Shown piece after piece: positions 4,017 to 36,833 of a DNA stretch of 37,026 nt (its first letter is position 1; each line of letters begins with the position of its first letter). The DNA comes from Cyanobacteriota bacterium (lineage in GTDB: Bacteria > Cyanobacteriota > Vampirovibrionia > LMEP-6097), in contig JAQCFG010000016.1 of NCBI GenBank assembly GCA_027618255.1, positions 1 to 37,026 of the forward strand, in the 5' to 3' direction. The translations under genes were made by a program, and so were the position numbers. The notes below the pieces were generated by a model. It saw only the letters and a list, made by a program, of their open reading frames with translations, ran no database searches and was not told where the DNA came from.

Positions 4017-4142
4017 AAAACTGTTCAGAAAGCTCCCAGATGCAAGGCTTGCGAATTTTCTGCAGACTGAGTTGACTGAGCCGTCAATGATGGCTGCAGC
4101 AAATGAGCGTAACGCCGCAGATGGGACTTTATGGGCAGTTTT
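4017..4142. repeat. Structured repeat, family B, copy 2
   Basis: A 126-bp element with paired ends (AAAACTG 4017-4023 with CAGTTTT 4136-4142). Outer arms run on through AGAAAGCTCCCAGATGC on the left and GCAGATGGGACTTTATGG on the right. Inside is the perfect hairpin TTGAC-TGAGCC-GTCAA, identical to that in copy 3. It lies between ubiD and the branching-enzyme homologue. Its right arm supplies the last codons and the stop of the latter gene (stop at 4129-4131). Confidence 0.7.
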
Positions 4143-6874: not shown

Positions 6875-8200
6875 TTACTCCGCAAGTATAGGCGAACCTA
6901 TCGGTATACCTACTATTGGCTTTACTGGACCTCCTATAGGCAAAGGATTTGTAGGGTACAGCCCTGGAGGATTTGTAGGGTACAGCCCTGGAGGATTTGT
7001 AGGGTACGGCCATGGAAAAATAAATTCTTGAGTTGCGCAATCTCCATGACCACCAATTTTTTCCCAATAACCCTCGCCATCTTCATAACTAAAATATGCA
7101 CACAGTGCTCCAGACTTATTCATATAAATATCTCCCATTGCTGGGTTTTCTGGTGGCGAGTTCAAAGGCTCTAAACGCATCGCATCACCAATATGAAGCT
7201 TACGTTGAGGGTCTAGCGTGCCAATACCAACTCGACTATCTGGCTTATAAAAAAATTCAGCCATTGGCAGCAAAGGGTCACTAACATTAGTAGTTGTAGC
7301 GTAATCACCAATATACAATGCCGCTTCACCATAGCCAAGTACTATGGATTTTTCTCGAGCTACATTGGTCAAGCCAGAACCGATTGCAATTGCATCACTA
7401 CTAACCACTAAATTACTAGAACCTATGACAACACTGCGGTTCGCTCTTACAGTGTTTGAATCACCAAGGACAACTGAGTGATATCCTTGAATGGAAGACC
7501 CAGAACCAAGTATAGAGGAGTCACCTCCTTCAATATGAGAATAAGTACCGACCACAAATGAGTTGTAATTCTTCACTTCTGGATCATTAGGTAGGCTATT
7601 CAGAAGTAAATTATTTGCTTTCACATTGCCAAAGCCAGCTTCACTAGCAGCAATAACCTTAGTTGTGACAGAACCACTAACCTCAAGATCACCACTAACA
7701 AAAAGCGTCCCTGTGCTAATATGATCTGCCGACACATTACCAAGATCAGCCTCAACTGTTTTAAGCTTATCCGAAATAGTACTCGTAGCTTTTATTTGAG
7801 AGCTAGTCAATGCAGCTGAATCAAGTCTGGTAATTCTAGCAGATGAAGCCCTTATACGACTAGAACTTAAAGTGCTAGTATGAAACCGGCTAGCGGAGCC
7901 AGTTCGTAGATTAATGTCTCGAGCATTTATTTTAATAGCTTTAATATCAGCAGCGACATCAAGCTTAGTGTTGATATTAACACTAGCAGCATTCACTTCT
8001 AAGCTAGGCTTACTAGTACCAAAGCCTACTGCAAGACTATTCGCCTTGTCATTTTTAAAATGATGTCCAATAGCAATTGCACCATTAACCGTTGCCTCTG
8101 CTCCATTACCAATACTTATTTTGTCGTCAGCTAATACCGCCAAACCTGTAAGCCCAATACAAGAGATTATCAAACTAATTTTTATAAAACTTTTTTTCAT
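6875..8200 (-). CDS. Secreted protein with YadA-head-like repeats and proline-rich tandem tail
   Basis: 441 residues from the third of three consecutive ATG codons. That start is chosen because GAGGTG (8208-8213) lies 7 nt upstream, an ideal Shine-Dalgarno spacing. A signal peptide (KKSFIKISLIISCIGLTGLAVLA) precedes short repeats of the kind found in trimeric autotransporter heads: ISIGNGAEATVNGAIAIGH, YSHIEGGDSSILGSGSSI, SVVLGDSNTVRANRSVVIGSS, AIAIGSGL. Then come RVGIGTLDPQRKLHIG, seen in tail-fibre-like and autotransporter stalk proteins, and a small domain with GDIYMNKSGALCAYFS. The tail holds three YPTNPPGL repeats. No outer-membrane anchor domain is present, so it is probably released or held by a partner. 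Function unknown; adhesion or surface coat is a guess. Confidence 0.75.
   Translation of the reverse strand: MKKSFIKISLIISCIGLTGLAVLADDKISIGNGAEATVNGAIAIGHHFKNDKANSLAVGFGTSKPSLEVNAASVNINTKLDVAADIKAIKINARDINLRTGSASRFHTSTLSSSRIRASSARITRLDSAALTSSQIKATSTISDKLKTVEADLGNVSADHISTGTLFVSGDLEVSGSVTTKVIAASEAGFGNVKANNLLLNSLPNDPEVKNYNSFVVGTYSHIEGGDSSILGSGSSIQGYHSVVLGDSNTVRANRSVVIGSSNLVVSSDAIAIGSGLTNVAREKSIVLGYGEAALYIGDYATTTNVSDPLLPMAEFFYKPDSRVGIGTLDPQRKLHIGDAMRLEPLNSPPENPAMGDIYMNKSGALCAYFSYEDGEGYWEKIGGHGDCATQEFIFPWPYPTNPPGLYPTNPPGLYPTNPLPIGGPVKPIVGIPIGSPILAE
6945..7016. repeat. Three tandem 24-bp repeats in coding sequence
   Basis: Copies at 6945-6968, 6969-6992 and 6993-7016; the first two are identical and the third has two changes. 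They encode YPTNPPGL-type octapeptides at the C-terminus of the YadA-head-like protein. As a whole number of codons, the copy number can change by replication slippage without a frameshift. Confidence 0.9.
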
Positions 8201-8258
8201 CATCATTCACCTCATCTTTCCTATTTTTGATACTTATCAACTCAATATTAAGGGCTAG

Positions 8259-10093: not shown

Positions 10094-11312
10094 ATTTAGT
10101 TTGATACCTCAACTGCATCAGCACAAATTTGGCAAAATTGGCTGCAATAGTTGCCTGTATCGCACCAATGATACCAAAGCGTGGGATAAAGATGCAATTC
10201 AGTCCTATATTTAGAAGAATACTAATAAGTTGAATTATATTTCTGCCTTTGTGATCCGCTTTAGCAGCCAGTAACATATTAGGTGCAGTATTGAGGAACC
10301 AAAGTAAAGCAATAAAAGCAAATAAAGGTGCCAATTGAATGGCAGCCTGATATTCTTCATTAAAGAACATCGCCAGGACTGGTTTTGAGAAGAAATAAAT
10401 ACCTAAGAATAAAGGCAAGCCAGCAATAAGCAATATCATGATTAATTTTCTTAGTATCGGCTTTAGTTCTTCAGTACTTTTGACTTTGTGTAGTTGTGGC
10501 AAAAATACTTGCCTAATAGAAAGTGGTATCATTTTAATCAAACGATTGAGCTTTGATGGAATAGAATAAAAAGCAACTGCGCTTGGCCCCAGAAAATAAT
10601 TAAGCATCAACCTATCTACCTTATTTTCAGCACCATCAAGAAAATCGAAAATCCCATAGAGTGCTGAATCCTTCATCATCGGCACAATATCTGGCAATGA
10701 AAGACGAGGCTTGATTAGATTCATCGTTGCAAAGAAAGATATCAAAAACTTGATCACTTCCATCAAAACAAAAGCATAAACAAGTTCAAGCAAACCTCCA
10801 AAATACTTGAAGACAACGAAAATTAATCCAAGTTTGATTATTTTATTAGTTGCTGTAATTGTAGCAATCAATTTAAATTGATCCAGTGCTCTTCTTACAA
10901 CTCCAAATATATTACTTAGGCTCATAAAAAATTCAATCAAAACATACAGTCCGATAATTTCTACCAAAACAGGGTCTGAGTTAAATTTACCGGCAAGAAA
11001 ATATATCAATAAGCCAATAGGAGTTCCAACTAGCAAGCGAACTAGCAAGGCATTACCCATTGCGTCCCTCAAACCCTCATTAAAACCATCAACATGATTT
11101 GAAGCATATTGAAAGATGGAGTTTTTGAAACCCATAGTATAAAAAAAAGAAAACATCTCAACAAATGCTTCTGCGGTAAGTAAAATTCCAAGCTCATGAG
11201 GCTTCAAGAATCGTGCAATTAATACAGTTGCAAAAGCAGTTGCCGGAATAACAACGACATTACTCAAACTTAAGTATGAAAATGATTTAAATAAATTTTT
11301 ACCTGTTTGCAT
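10080..11312 (-). CDS. Polysaccharide flippase (Wzx-like, MOP superfamily)
   Basis: 410 residues with roughly 12 hydrophobic helices and few charges between them, as in Wzx/RfbX-type lipid-linked oligosaccharide flippases. Recognisable features are the N-terminal amphipathic stretch then SNVVVIPATAFATVLIARFLKPHELGI, a central VDRLMLNYFLGPSAVAFYSIPSK, and GIIGAIQATIAANFAKF near the end. The family turns undecaprenyl-linked sugar units across the inner membrane. It overlaps galE by 14 bp and the first sulfotransferase by 14 bp, tying it to one polysaccharide pathway with an epimerase and two sulfotransferases. No polymerase (wzy) is seen in the window. Confidence 0.88.
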   Translation of the reverse strand: MQTGKNLFKSFSYLSLSNVVVIPATAFATVLIARFLKPHELGILLTAEAFVEMFSFFYTMGFKNSIFQYASNHVDGFNEGLRDAMGNALLVRLLVGTPIGLLIYFLAGKFNSDPVLVEIIGLYVLIEFFMSLSNIFGVVRRALDQFKLIATITATNKIIKLGLIFVVFKYFGGLLELVYAFVLMEVIKFLISFFATMNLIKPRLSLPDIVPMMKDSALYGIFDFLDGAENKVDRLMLNYFLGPSAVAFYSIPSKLNRLIKMIPLSIRQVFLPQLHKVKSTEELKPILRKLIMILLIAGLPLFLGIYFFSKPVLAMFFNEEYQAAIQLAPLFAFIALLWFLNTAPNMLLAAKADHKGRNIIQLISILLNIGLNCIFIPRFGIIGAIQATIAANFAKFVLMQLRYQTKYANK

Positions 11313-12396
11313 GAAATTTTTTGCGGTGCTCTAGCGCATCCTCGATTATTCTATCAATGGAAGCTCTCTCTGGCTTGAAAAACCCAGCAGCAATAGCTTT
11401 AGTGTTATCAGCAACTAAACGATCTGGATCACCAGCACGTCTATCAGAATACTCAAGCGGAATTGCTTGACCAGCCATCTTTTCTATTGACCGCACGATC
11501 TCCAGTACCGAGAATCCTTTGTTGTAGCCAAGATTGTATGCTTGATTAATGCCTTTCCCTGACTTAAAGAGATCTAAGGCAGCAATGTGCGCCTTACAAA
11601 GATCAACCACATGAATATAATCTCTGACTGCAGTACCGTCCGCAGTATTGTAGTCAGTACCAAACAACTTAAAAATCTCACGATGTCCAAGAAGAGCATC
11701 TAAAGCAATTGGAATAATATGACTCTCTGGTTCATGCTCCTCGCCAATATCACCATAAGCTCCTGCAACATTGAAATAACGCAATGCAATATATTTAAAA
11801 TCCTCTTCTTGAGACTTGAGTTCTAAGTATTTTTCAACCGCTAATTTATTTTCACCATAAGGATTGATTGGCATAAGCTCAGAATCTTCCTTCAAAGCAA
11901 TATCCATAATTGGTAGTCCATAAACAGCCGCCGTACTAGAAAAAATCAAATTCTTGATTCCAAGATTAATTAATTTATCAACCAATACCGTTGTCTTTAT
12001 ATAGTTGTTTTCTTTGTATAGACCCGGCTTCTCAACAGATTCAGCAACTTCAATAAATGCAGCAAAATGCATAACCGCTTCTATATTAGACTTGTTTTGA
12101 AAGTCGGAATTATCTCCAAAGGCAACACGCGCATTCCGCGCGGTTCCGACATTTTGTGTGTCGACATCACTAGCAAAACTTCGTTTTGCATGATGTCTAT
12201 TATGCTTCCCAACAATCTCCTCCAAAATCTTCTCATCAGAAATACATGCCTGATAAAATTCTATTCCATCAACTAAATGACTTGGTTTCGACCTTGAAAG
12301 ATCATCAATACCAATTACTTGATAGCCAGCCTCAAGTAGAAGTTTGCAAGCTATCGCTCCAATATATCCAGCACAACCTGTTACAAGTATTGCCAT
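11299..12396 (-). CDS. galE: UDP-glucose 4-epimerase with an in-frame palindromic element
   Basis: 365 residues from the ATG at 12396; a GTG 6 bp upstream is less likely. The NAD-binding GCAGYIG is at 7-13. The catalytic tyrosine and lysine are Y180 and K184 (PYGENK), with FSSTAAVYG before them. It makes UDP-galactose, a polysaccharide precursor, and leads the operon with the flippase and sulfotransferases. Residues 67-103 are not galE sequence. They are encoded exactly, codon for codon, by a 111-bp palindromic repeat. Without them, the protein reads EEIVGKHN then NIEAVMHFAA, which lines up with E. coli GalE at the loop between a helix and the next strand (ILHDHAIDTVIHFAG). The insert sits on the surface of the Rossmann fold, so activity may survive. 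TGG-TATTAT ends 8 nt before the start. Confidence 0.93.
   Translation of the reverse strand: MAILVTGCAGYIGAIACKLLLEAGYQVIGIDDLSRSKPSHLVDGIEFYQACISDEKILEEIVGKHNRHHAKRSFASDVDTQNVGTARNARVAFGDNSDFQNKSNIEAVMHFAAFIEVAESVEKPGLYKENNYIKTTVLVDKLINLGIKNLIFSSTAAVYGLPIMDIALKEDSELMPINPYGENKLAVEKYLELKSQEEDFKYIALRYFNVAGAYGDIGEEHEPESHIIPIALDALLGHREIFKLFGTDYNTADGTAVRDYIHVVDLCKAHIAALDLFKSGKGINQAYNLGYNKGFSVLEIVRSIEKMAGQAIPLEYSDRRAGDPDRLVADNTKAIAAGFFKPERASIDRIIEDALEHRKKFHANR
12088..12198. repeat. 111-bp coding palindromic element (copy in galE)
   Basis: Starts AGACTTGTTTTGAAAGTCGG on the plus strand and ends GATGTCT. It is exactly 37 codons and begins and ends on codon boundaries of galE, giving the peptide that starts RHHAKRSF and ends NSDFQNKS. 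57 bp (12088-12144) are identical to 35994-36050 in the beta-propeller gene. It contains the hairpins GACTT/AAGTC near the left end, GCGC/GCGC-type pairing around ATTC, and GCAAAAC-TTC-GTTTTGC (12173-12189). The used frame and its antisense frame are both free of stops. Confidence 0.93.
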
Positions 12397-12404
12397 AAGC
12401 ACTA

Positions 12405-12447: not shown

Positions 12448-12479
12448 AGACTTGTTTTGAAAGTCGGGATTGTCCCAGC
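12448..12479. repeat. Truncated copy of the 111-bp element, intergenic
   Basis: The first 20 bp (AGACTTGTTTTGAAAGTCGG) are identical to the left end of both full copies. The next ~12 bp (GATTGTCCCA) are a diverged version of AATTATCTCCA. Similarity then stops; an AGTCT at 12498-12502 might be a remnant of the other end. It lies in the divergent galE/korA spacer, where no reading frame has to be kept. Confidence 0.8.
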
Positions 12480-12555
12480 TTGCAAAAGATAACTCCCAGT
12501 CTCTCTAGGCACAAATATTTAGTTAGCCATAAACATTGAGGGTATATATAGACTA

Positions 12556-22387: not shown

Positions 22388-22510
22388 AAGCTGCCTCGAA
22401 AGTTCAAGAACAAGGCATTTTCGAGCAGCGGAACGGAGTTGACTGAGCCGTCAATGATGACTTGTCTTGACGAGCGTAACACAGCAGATGGAGCTTTTCG
22501 AACAGGTTCT
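22388..22510. repeat. Structured repeat, family B, copy 3 (between convergent gene ends)
   Basis: About 123 bp. The left arm (AAGCTGCCTCGAAAGTTC) pairs imperfectly with the right arm (GGAGCTTTTCGAACAGGTT). The inner hairpin TTGAC-TGAGCC-GTCAA, the CAAGGC block and the GAGCGTAAC...GCAGATG block match copy 2 closely. It lies between the convergent dehydrogenase gene and the unknown gene ending at 22509. Its right end provides the last base or two of that gene's stop region. Confidence 0.7.
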
Positions 22511-34038: not shown

Positions 34039-35205
34039 TTAATGATAGCAAAGCTCTGCAATAATCCGGTTACTTAGCATCTGCGCCTTATCTGTTAATT
34101 TGATATTTTTGTCACCACTGATAAAACCAGCTTTCTTCATCTTTTCAAGATTGTCTACATTAATATATGCTTGGATTTGCTGATCTAAATCCAAGCCCTC
34201 AGCAAGTCTCATTTGTAGCATTATTTTTTCTTCAAGTTTTTCTTCATTATCAATTTTTACAGATTCCACCTGGATTGCCGCAACTTTGATACCCCCATTG
34301 CTTGCAACGGTACTAGCATTAATATATTCATCCAAATCGCGAGTATTGTGATAACGGTAAGAATCTACGTAACCATGTGCACTCAAGCCAAAGGCATAAT
34401 ACTCCTGAGCACGCCAATAAATCAAGTTGTGTCTAGCTTCATGCCCGGGCTTTGCCCAATTACTAATCTCATAACGCTGTAAACCAGCTGTAGCAAAAAG
34501 TTCATTGGCTCTTTCATACATTGTTACCAAATCTTCCTCTTGAGGCAAAGTGGCATGTGAAGAATCCTTATATATTTTGCCATAAGGGGTATTTTTCTCA
34601 ATACTCAAACAATAAGCAGAGATATGTGGCGGTTTATAACTAAGCGCCGTCTCCACTGTTGAGAGCCAGGATTCAATAGTCTGTCCGGGCAAACCATAAA
34701 TCAAATCAAAGCTCCATGAATTTAAAGAATCAGGAAAGAGCTCAGTTAATACCTCAATAAAATTAATTGAGTCTTGCACACTATGTCCGCGCCCAAGTTT
34801 ATCTAATAATGCAGCATCAAAACTCTGCGCACCGAAACTAATTCTATTAACACCAAGCTCAAGAAATTGCTCAAGCTTGCTTCGATCTATAGTCCCAGGA
34901 TTCGCTTCTAGAGTGATTTCCACTGAATCAGCTAAGCTAAAGTGTTGCTTGACTTTATCCAAGACCTGGGCAAGCTCAGCTTTACTATGCACACTTGGAG
35001 TGCCGCCACCAAAAAATATAGTCTCAATAGTCCCAGGCTCAAATGCCCATTTTTGCATACGCGCATCAATCTCACGAACTAAAGCATCAATATAAACCTG
35101 ACGTTTATCATCTTCTTTGGCGAAACTAGCAAAATCACAATAAGGGCATTTGGTTTTGCAGAAAGGTAAATGAATATAGATACCGCGTGGTTTATCCAAA
35201 ATCAT
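34039..35205 (-). CDS. hemW: HemW-type radical SAM heme chaperone
   Basis: 388 residues. GIYIHLPFCKTKCPYCDFASF (8-28) carries the CX3CX2C cluster motif (C16, C20, C23) of radical SAM enzymes in its HemN/HemW form. GGGTPS and LEANPGT follow, then RISFGAQSFD and SFDLIYGLPGQT. Many HemW proteins were annotated as oxygen-independent coproporphyrinogen III oxidases, but the single compact CxxxCxxC start and the length fit the heme-chaperone branch, which inserts heme into respiratory enzymes. No other heme-synthesis gene is near. The ATG overlaps the stop of the beta-propeller gene by 4 bp, so both are coupled. Confidence 0.9.
   Translation of the reverse strand: MILDKPRGIYIHLPFCKTKCPYCDFASFAKEDDKRQVYIDALVREIDARMQKWAFEPGTIETIFFGGGTPSVHSKAELAQVLDKVKQHFSLADSVEITLEANPGTIDRSKLEQFLELGVNRISFGAQSFDAALLDKLGRGHSVQDSINFIEVLTELFPDSLNSWSFDLIYGLPGQTIESWLSTVETALSYKPPHISAYCLSIEKNTPYGKIYKDSSHATLPQEEDLVTMYERANELFATAGLQRYEISNWAKPGHEARHNLIYWRAQEYYAFGLSAHGYVDSYRYHNTRDLDEYINASTVASNGGIKVAAIQVESVKIDNEEKLEEKIMLQMRLAEGLDLDQQIQAYINVDNLEKMKKAGFISGDKNIKLTDKAQMLSNRIIAELCYH
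34042..34050 (-). promoter_or_regulatory. Extended -10-like box before the AsmA-like gene
   Basis: TGC-TATCAT on the minus strand lies inside the last codons of hemW and ends 8 nt before the ATG at 34033. It fits the pattern at other genes but could be chance within coding sequence. Confidence 0.3.
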
Positions 35206-36833
35206 AATGCCAACAAAATACTAGAACTATCACCAATATCAATTTTGTGAACCATGGACCAAGTAGCAAGATCAAAAACTGCGATTGTATTTGTGCCAGA
35301 ACTTGAAATCAACACAAACTTGCCAGTATTAGCAAAAGTCATATTTTGTGGATCAATAATATCAGGAGCGAGATTGGCATTTTCAACCGAATAAGACTTC
35401 TCAAAATCAATTTTTGAAACAAAGGCTGCATCTTGGTTTGAGCCAAGTGCATAAACATGCTTATTGTCTTTTGCCAGCAAAAGATCTATTGGTACATAAT
35501 CTAAATCAATTGAAGAAATCAATTGACTGGTAACTGCATCAAGTACTAAAACCTTACCTTGAACAGCAAATTGTTTTTGAGGATTGGCATTAATTGCTTC
35601 AACTGCCACAAAAACCTTGGATTCATTTACAGCAAGTGCATGTGGTACATAACGAAAATCCTTGCTTAATAAATTCAAATCAAGAGTCTTAGACATTCGG
35701 TAATCAAAACTATTAATACTCAACAAACTTGACTTTGACTTCGACAGCATCATAATCTGCACTGGTTCAGCACTACTACGTGAGACTTTAATCATATCAG
35801 AGCAACCAGCAGGAATAGTGATTGTCTTAATGAGCCTCTTTGCTTTAATATCGACAACAAAAATATTAGACCCAAGGCTATCTAAGAAATATGCGACTCC
35901 ATTTTCTTTTTCAATCTGAAAATCACGCAAACCAGCTACCAGACCGAGGTCAGTTAGGTCAAACAGTTCAGTCATCTCTAAGTTTGATTCAATAGACTTG
36001 TTTTGAAAGTCGGAATTATCTCCAAAGGCAACACGCGCATTCCGCGCGGTTGCTACCTTTGTTTGATCAACCTGTACATCGAAACTTCGTTTCGAAACAG
36101 GTCTAAATATTTCCTCATTAGGTTTTAACGAATCATATTTAATTTCGGGACTAGTAATCTGAAAAACTTTTGCTTGATGGTAATCAAGCAAATACAAATC
36201 ACCATCGATGGTTTTAATTTCAGATACATAACTAAGTCCAGCACTCATCTCATCCAAATTCTCAACCAATGGTAGATCACTAAAACCAACTCGTTTGAGT
36301 AATCCTGTTTTAATAGAATAAGAAATCGCATCAATAGGCTTATTAGCTTTTTCTTCTAATAATCTCTCTTTGAAACGCAACTCTCTATCAGAAGCAAGCT
36401 CTACGCTTCTTAAGCTAAGCGGCAAGCGCCCCATTGTAATAGCTAAATCACGCGGTAACTCAAAGCTGTCCGGTACCAAGAAAGTGGGGACGATATTAGT
36501 TGCAAGTATCTTTGCTTGAATTTGTGGATCAAAGAAATCAAAACTTTTGACAGTCTTGTTGACAATAGGTGTAAAAATCCAATCGTTAATCTCATCAGAA
36601 AATAGAAAATCGTCTCCATCTTTAATAACTAATTGAATCTCAGAGCCGTTACTAACTTGAAGAGCTTTGTTTTCGGATCTAAACAACAACCAAGTTTTGT
36701 TATCAGCTTGCATCAAACCATCTGCTCTTTCTTTTGCATTCTTATAGTGCTGTTTAAACTCAGTAACTATTGCTTCAGGCAAAGCTGCTGAAGCTGGAAG
36801 AAATATCAGTAATAGAGCAATTAATAAACGCAC
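35202..36833 (-). CDS. Exported beta-propeller-like protein with an in-frame palindromic element
   Basis: 543 residues from a GTG at 36833. The signal peptide RLLIALLLIFLPASA begins there and no ATG is available. The mature part has repeated four-strand blades of the YncE/NHL kind. Examples are VSEIKTIDGDLYLLDYHQAKVFQI, VAYFLDSLGSNIFVVDIKAKRLIKTITI, GKVLVLDAVTSQLISSIDL and GKFVLISSSGTNTIAVFDLATWSMVHKIDIG. It probably acts in the periplasm as a binding scaffold; no ligand can be named. Residues 244-280 come exactly from the 111-bp palindromic repeat also found in galE, in the same frame, between PNEEIF and IESNLEMTELF. It overlaps hemW by 4 bp. TAGAAT ends 7 nt before the start. Confidence 0.78.
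   Translation of the reverse strand: MRLLIALLLIFLPASAALPEAIVTEFKQHYKNAKERADGLMQADNKTWLLFRSENKALQVSNGSEIQLVIKDGDDFLFSDEINDWIFTPIVNKTVKSFDFFDPQIQAKILATNIVPTFLVPDSFELPRDLAITMGRLPLSLRSVELASDRELRFKERLLEEKANKPIDAISYSIKTGLLKRVGFSDLPLVENLDEMSAGLSYVSEIKTIDGDLYLLDYHQAKVFQITSPEIKYDSLKPNEEIFRPVSKRSFDVQVDQTKVATARNARVAFGDNSDFQNKSIESNLEMTELFDLTDLGLVAGLRDFQIEKENGVAYFLDSLGSNIFVVDIKAKRLIKTITIPAGCSDMIKVSRSSAEPVQIMMLSKSKSSLLSINSFDYRMSKTLDLNLLSKDFRYVPHALAVNESKVFVAVEAINANPQKQFAVQGKVLVLDAVTSQLISSIDLDYVPIDLLLAKDNKHVYALGSNQDAAFVSKIDFEKSYSVENANLAPDIIDPQNMTFANTGKFVLISSSGTNTIAVFDLATWSMVHKIDIGDSSSILLAL
35994..36104. repeat. 111-bp coding palindromic element (copy in the beta-propeller gene)
   Basis: The plus strand starts AGACTTGTTTTGAAAGTCGG and ends TTTCGAAACAGGTCT. 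The outer 15 bp at each end are near-perfect inverted repeats. It has the same length as the galE copy, falls on the same codon boundary and encodes a peptide starting RPVSKRSF and ending NSDFQNKS. 35994-36050 is identical to 12088-12144; the rest has drifted. The hairpin TCGAAAC-TTC-GTTTCGA (36079-36095) corresponds to GCAAAAC-TTC-GTTTTGC in galE, with two base pairs exchanged on both sides of the stem. Confidence 0.93.

Follow-up and report, generated by a model that had tools for sequence, protein, structure and literature searches.

How do two otherwise unrelated proteins come to carry much the same segment of 37 residues? The question is raised by the window studied here, a stretch of 37,026 nucleotides that forms contig 16 in a draft genome of 1.99 Mb (the host genome, G000) from an uncultured member of the Melainabacteria/Vampirovibrionia, the non-photosynthetic sister lineage of cyanobacteria. 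A preliminary description had placed a palindromic element of exactly 111 bp at 12088-12198, in galE, and at 35994-36104, in a beta-propeller gene, in the same orientation and with both ends at codon boundaries, and had proposed that it is mobile and resembles the Rickettsia palindromic elements (RPEs). Two relatives figure repeatedly in what follows: G001, another species of the same genus, and G004, from another genus of the same family (bin CAIYXB01, Loclat_bin-07551).

Two copies of a 111-bp element in the window

Re-reading of the sequence upheld the coordinates, lengths, orientation and codon-boundary ends given above. The identical block that the two copies were said to share is also real and starts at 12088, but it is 58 bases long, not 57. 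The features are:

11299..12402, minus strand: galE (UDP-glucose 4-epimerase), insert at about residues 67-104
12085..12087, no strand: left target-site duplication ATT (flanks; single ATT at the empty site of G001)
12088..12198, plus strand: full 111-bp copy of the element in galE (sequence, genome search, flank check)
12088..12102, plus strand: left terminal repeat AGACTTGTTTTGAAA
12184..12198, minus strand: right terminal repeat, reading inward AGACATCATGCAAAA
12199..12201, no strand: right target-site duplication ATT (flanks; single ATT at the empty site of G001)
12448..12486, plus strand: 39-bp fragment (left end) of the element, between galE and the pyruvate:ferredoxin oxidoreductase gene
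35202..36833, minus strand: YNCE-like beta-propeller gene, insert at about residues 243-281
35994..36104, plus strand: full 111-bp copy of the element in the beta-propeller gene, flanks AAT/AAA

Both full copies begin with AGAC and finish with GTCT, they are 81-83% identical, and each is a plus-strand copy within a minus-strand open reading frame. The net gain per insertion is 38 codons, namely 37 from the element and one from the duplicated target. By comparison with PDB structures, the GalE insert maps to residues 64-66 of 2c20_A, right before the conserved NIEAVMHFAA. The terminal inverted repeats of the element are imperfect and about 15 nt long (AGACTTGTTTTGAAA and AGACCTGTTTCGAAA), and there are hairpins in its interior (fold z about -4 to -6); with such short imperfect ends, the word palindromic describes it only in part.

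The window holds other repeats as well. A 24-bp unit occurs three times in tandem at 6944-7016, in the open reading frame 6875-8206 (AGGATTTGTAGGGTACAGCCCTGG), and two short repeat families, GAGTTGACTGAGCCGTCAATGATG (4066-4095 and 22433-22462) and ACACAGCAGATAGAG (1907-1933 and 22472-22498), look unrelated to the 111-bp element.

Target site, reading frame and empty sites

Identical trinucleotides border the element in 31 of 56 copies of the host genome, and all of them are of the form ANT (AAT 18, ATT 9, ACT 2 and AGT 2). At any other register identical flanking trinucleotides are found in 0-3 of the 56, and the chance expectation is 0.13 in 57. In G004, which carries a sister element, nearly all copies have perfect ANT pairs. 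Since 111 bp plus the 3-bp duplication makes 114 bp, or 38 codons, the reading frame survives the insertion of a full copy. Frame-neutral length is found in 9/9 copies in genes and in 23/41 outside (p = 0.018), a comparison that is partly circular.

When the consensus is read together with the target duplication, two of the six frames are open, one on each strand, in the G000 and G004 families alike. Two open frames are not unusual for such a composition, as at least two are found in 11% of shuffles. The minus frame specifies the more hydrophilic of the two peptides, the stop-free RPVSKxSFDVQVAQKKVATARNARVAFGDNSDFQNKS, with QSFDVQVAQK and VAFGDNSDFQNK among its predicted tryptic peptides. When it is read in this way, the duplicated ANT makes up one complete codon, so that Asn, Ile, Thr or Ser is repeated on either side of the insert. 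The preliminary description had suggested that either orientation is tolerated. This is contradicted by the use of the minus frame in all 14 scored internal gene insertions (binomial p = 0.0001 if both frames were equally good). The insert peptide is presumably translated.

At least 11 genes of the host genome have internal in-frame insertions. They encode GalE, the propeller protein, the cell-wall enzyme MurE, BirA, an ElbB-like protein, a histidine kinase, an ABC permease with two inserts in tandem, ResB, an endonuclease/phosphatase-like protein, a VirB4-like ATPase, and the product of one small open reading frame. Insertions near the C-terminus are found in a methyltransferase and in TruB. 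Pfam assigns families to several of the hosts (MurE, BPL, HisKA/HATPase, BPD_transp_1, ResB, TruB and methyltransferase) and gives no match for the ElbB-like and endonuclease/phosphatase-like proteins; these two names and VirB4-like are what we take the proteins to be from reading of their sequence. The same holds for two further in-frame hosts, presumably an RluA-like protein in G001 and, in G004, a BioF/KBL-like one that contains the peptide of the sister element.

Several of these sites are empty in a relative. After removal of 111 + 3 bp, birA is identical to G001 at 87/87 bases, murE is 91% identical and galE 87%, and in each case G001 has a single ANT. The murE site is empty in G002 also. 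The ABC permease of G001 is 75 residues shorter, which corresponds to two missing inserts, and in that genome the ElbB-like and histidine kinase genes are likewise without the segment. It is missing from the G001 propeller gene too, but there the difference fits removal of 111 bp, not 114. The copy in the histidine kinase gene is truncated at one end, and some bases of the host gene are gone as well. The irregularities in these two genes look like later small deletions. In resB, G000 and G001 carry the insert at the same codon with private variants in common, and the insert is therefore older than their split. As the two assemblies are separate, the concern that an assembly artefact had joined the genes was not borne out. 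One gene carries a copy at a matching codon in both species (C61:7361-7471 of G000, C57:16575-16687 of G001), but the duplications differ, AGT/AGT and AAT/AAT; this could be due to parallel insertion or to coordinated change.

Copy number, distribution and the probable mobilising enzyme

With the galE copy as query, 45 matches were obtained in the host genome. The end motif, allowing at most 2 mismatches, occurs there 37 times and a reversed control not at all. A profile built from the copies yielded at least 78 copies or fragments, at least 57 of them near-complete; these counts are lower bounds, the profile having been run over 198 kb around copies rather than over the whole genome. With so many copies, a chance resemblance between two sequences is ruled out and, together with the empty sites at galE, murE and birA, the claim of mobility is supported. 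The element is short (111 bp), multi-copy and free of a transposase gene, as is typical of MITEs. Several subfamilies are present in G000, with ends AGACTTGTTTTG..CGAAACAGGTCT, AGACTTACTGCA or AGACTTCCTGCG..TGCAGGATGTCT, and AGACCTTTTGCG..CGCAAGATATCT. The galE copy is a chimera: its left part is that of the first of these (subfamily A), its right end that of the second (the TGCA..GATGTCT subfamily).

G001 has 8 matches and G004 about 21. The sister element of G004 is 74% identical to that of the host genome and is likewise 111 bp long; its copies are about 100% identical to each other, and this near-identity together with the perfect ANT pairs indicates recent transposition. A screen of 382 genomes from the class identified only G000, G001 and G004 as carriers, at the sensitivity used. 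An exact scan for the end motif in 84,980 species genomes gave matches only in the Melainabacteria lineage, apart from three that are chance-like. The former include JABHOV010000049 ('Candidatus Melainabacteria bacterium SI037S4_bin4'), which has the same element as G001. The pattern matches in Rhodopila and a Deltaproteobacterium come without the rest of the element and were set aside as chance or unrelated. The element has no match in Rfam or in the plasmid, phage and viral scans.

Two smaller observations concern element ends. About 10 sites in the host genome carry a two-ended mini-palindrome of 22 bp, AGACCTGTTTCGAAACAGGTCT, among them C2:34495-34516, C9:26872-26893, C12:14945-14966 and C18:26371-26392; four have perfect ATT pairs. 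These are probably deletion products of the element. At C28:14503-16177, a HipBA-like pair lies between two opposite element ends, either as a composite unit or by coincidence.

A search of the class for DDE_Tnp_4 identified insertion sequences in three genomes, G013, G032 and G270, whose ends read AGACCTTTTGCGAAAGTC / AGATCTCTTGCGAAAGC, AGACTTATTGCGAAAT, AGACCTCTTGCATGAA and AGACTTGTTGCGAAATA. The G013 end AGACCTTTTGCGAAAGTC is identical at 18/18 nt to the subfamily D copies on contig C9 of the host genome. The end of the G004 element differs from the G013 insertion-sequence end by one mismatch in 16, the best of 2,000 random 100-bp windows having 4. G004 also retains a remnant end, ATT|AGATCATTTGCGAAAGT, adjoining a DDE_Tnp_4 fragment at a contig edge. 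Both flanks can be read in three of the insertion sequences, and these have ANT on each side, but the middle base differs between the two sides, so that a duplication of their own is no more than possible; a fourth copy, in G270, has TAG at its left end. A 3-bp ANT duplication is characteristic of the ISL2 group of ISfinder. The insertion sequences of G013 and G270 encode HTH_Tnp_4 and DDE_Tnp_4, in G013 in two overlapping open reading frames; two overlapping transposase frames are also present in the ISL2-group element ISCaa3 (PMC3196728).

The element shares with these HTH_Tnp_4 and DDE_Tnp_4 insertion sequences of the class, which we take to be ISL2-like (IS5 family), the ends AGACCTTTTGCGAAAG, but unlike them it is itself gene-free. 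It is likely to be an ISL2-group (IS5 family) dependent MITE, membership being only likely because there is no cognate transposase in G000 or G001. The absence of a DDE_Tnp_4 gene from these two genomes as assembled is a weak one, as both are drafts and repeats break assemblies. As for other candidates, a parent element was sought in G000 between opposite ends separated by 1-1.7 kb, but such intervals hold ordinary genes (HipBA-like, LexA-like and others) and no transposase, and the DDE_Tnp_1 transposases of the family have unrelated ends.

Alternative explanations and relation to known elements

We consider it very probable that the element is a MITE with ISL2-like (IS5 family) ends which inserts at ANT and is kept in genes as a tolerated insert of 38 residues. 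A transposase acting in trans would insert it at the trinucleotide ANT with duplication of the target, as read from the flanks, and a full copy, by adding 38 codons, would leave the frame unshifted. Gene insertions in the open orientation and phase would be tolerated and kept, whereas others would truncate the gene and be lost by selection; the galE and propeller copies would be two such tolerated events. The peptide would then most likely be a passenger, mostly harmless, rather than a selected function.

The same peptide, in the same frame, in unrelated proteins might also be a conserved domain or exon-like module that was spread by gene conversion or recombination and not as transposable DNA. 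However, most copies lie outside genes or in other frames, the element has precise boundaries in the DNA with ANT duplications, and the flanks are unrelated, all of which makes such a module very improbable. It is unlikely too that the inserts have been recruited, that is, that the peptide is selected for, as a localisation signal or binding loop, and the element kept as a protein-modifying cassette. The preference of the 14 scored insertions for one of two open frames is in keeping with recruitment, as is the maintenance of the same length and open frames by the sister element in another genus. Three copies common to G000 (on C61, C8 and C2) and G001 have in addition diverged less than their 300-bp flanks (17/333 versus 257/1800 differences, p = 7e-7). 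But the intergenic common copy has diverged slowly as well, so the slowness is not about the peptide. Between G000 and G001, the two common in-gene inserts differ by 10 codon changes, of which 5 are synonymous and 5 replace an amino acid; outside the inserts, the same genes have 223 and 84. The 10 changes, which have little power, give no sign of peptide constraint. The host proteins also have no common theme.

The strong hairpins, and the mini-palindrome sites described above, would suit a REP/BIME-like regulator, in the form of an RNA or DNA hairpin, that is moved by a REP-associated tyrosine transposase and enters genes by accident. Single-strand tyrosine transposases (IS200/IS605-type chemistry) make no target duplication, however, while more than half of the copies scored here have one, and with no Rfam match either, a regulator of this kind is scarcely credible. 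The size range and in-frame habit are those of RPEs (PMC2229807), but acquisition of an RPE by horizontal transfer is extremely unlikely given that the end-motif scan returned no Rickettsia, and that there was no plasmid or phage match.

The element behaves much as RPEs do; these are 105-146 bp long and enter conserved genes without breaking the frame, and one product that was tested had kept its activity (PMC2229807, PMC10969869). RPEs and the Wolbachia protein-coding palindromic repeats resemble it in size, terminal repeats, hairpins, and occurrence both in frame in conserved genes and between genes (PMC2229807, PMC10969869). Unlike RPEs, the present element belongs to a different phylum, and the sequence reveals both how it duplicates its target and the likely kind of transposase; for RPEs, the target duplication is entered as '?' in Table 1 of PMC2229807. 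There is no likeness in sequence by the end-motif scan, and the two are set apart by that scan, not by alignment. The preliminary description knew of nothing comparable outside the alpha-proteobacteria, which remains true of this sequence but not of in-frame small mobile sequences generally, since these have been described in Enterobacteria, Neisseria, Coxiella and Anabaena (PMC2229807, PMC10969869, PMC5896051). A 2024 review considered such protein evolution conceivable in other prokaryotes (PMC10969869), and the present element provides an example. ERIC/RU-1 and YPAL/RU-2 of enterobacteria, the Correia elements of Neisseria and QMITE2 of Coxiella are likewise MITE-like, with open frames at times fused to genes (PMC2759123, PMC2229807, PMC5896051). 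Their sequences and target duplications are different, however (7-9 bp in QMITE2), and their reported fusions are mostly in hypothetical frames or at gene ends, whereas here the inserts are inside conserved enzymes. With its copies, terminal inverted repeats, constant 3-bp duplication and precise empty sites, the element is most aptly classified as a new family of MITEs. The RPE-like reading therefore holds for its mobility and in-frame working, now specified by the 3-bp ANT duplication and ISL2-like ends, and RPE identity has no support from the end-motif scan.

It is possible, though doubtful, that the element is under selection as a frame-neutral cassette with one open frame. On this view, two diverged families, in two genera, would have preserved the 111-bp length and a minus frame free of stops because copies sitting harmlessly in genes survive better. 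The element would then be specialised for invading coding regions and would steadily supply new protein segments, each of 38 residues. Gene-invading palindromes are best known from Rickettsia and Wolbachia, which are obligate intracellular bacteria, and the mobilising enzyme and target duplication are unclear there. The present case is in a different phylum, and the target site and its duplication, the frame arithmetic, the empty sites and the likely transposase family can all be read, so the origin of new protein segments from mobile DNA becomes testable. In annotation and structural work on this Melainabacteria group, enzymes that are conserved in other respects should be expected to contain inserts of 38 residues.
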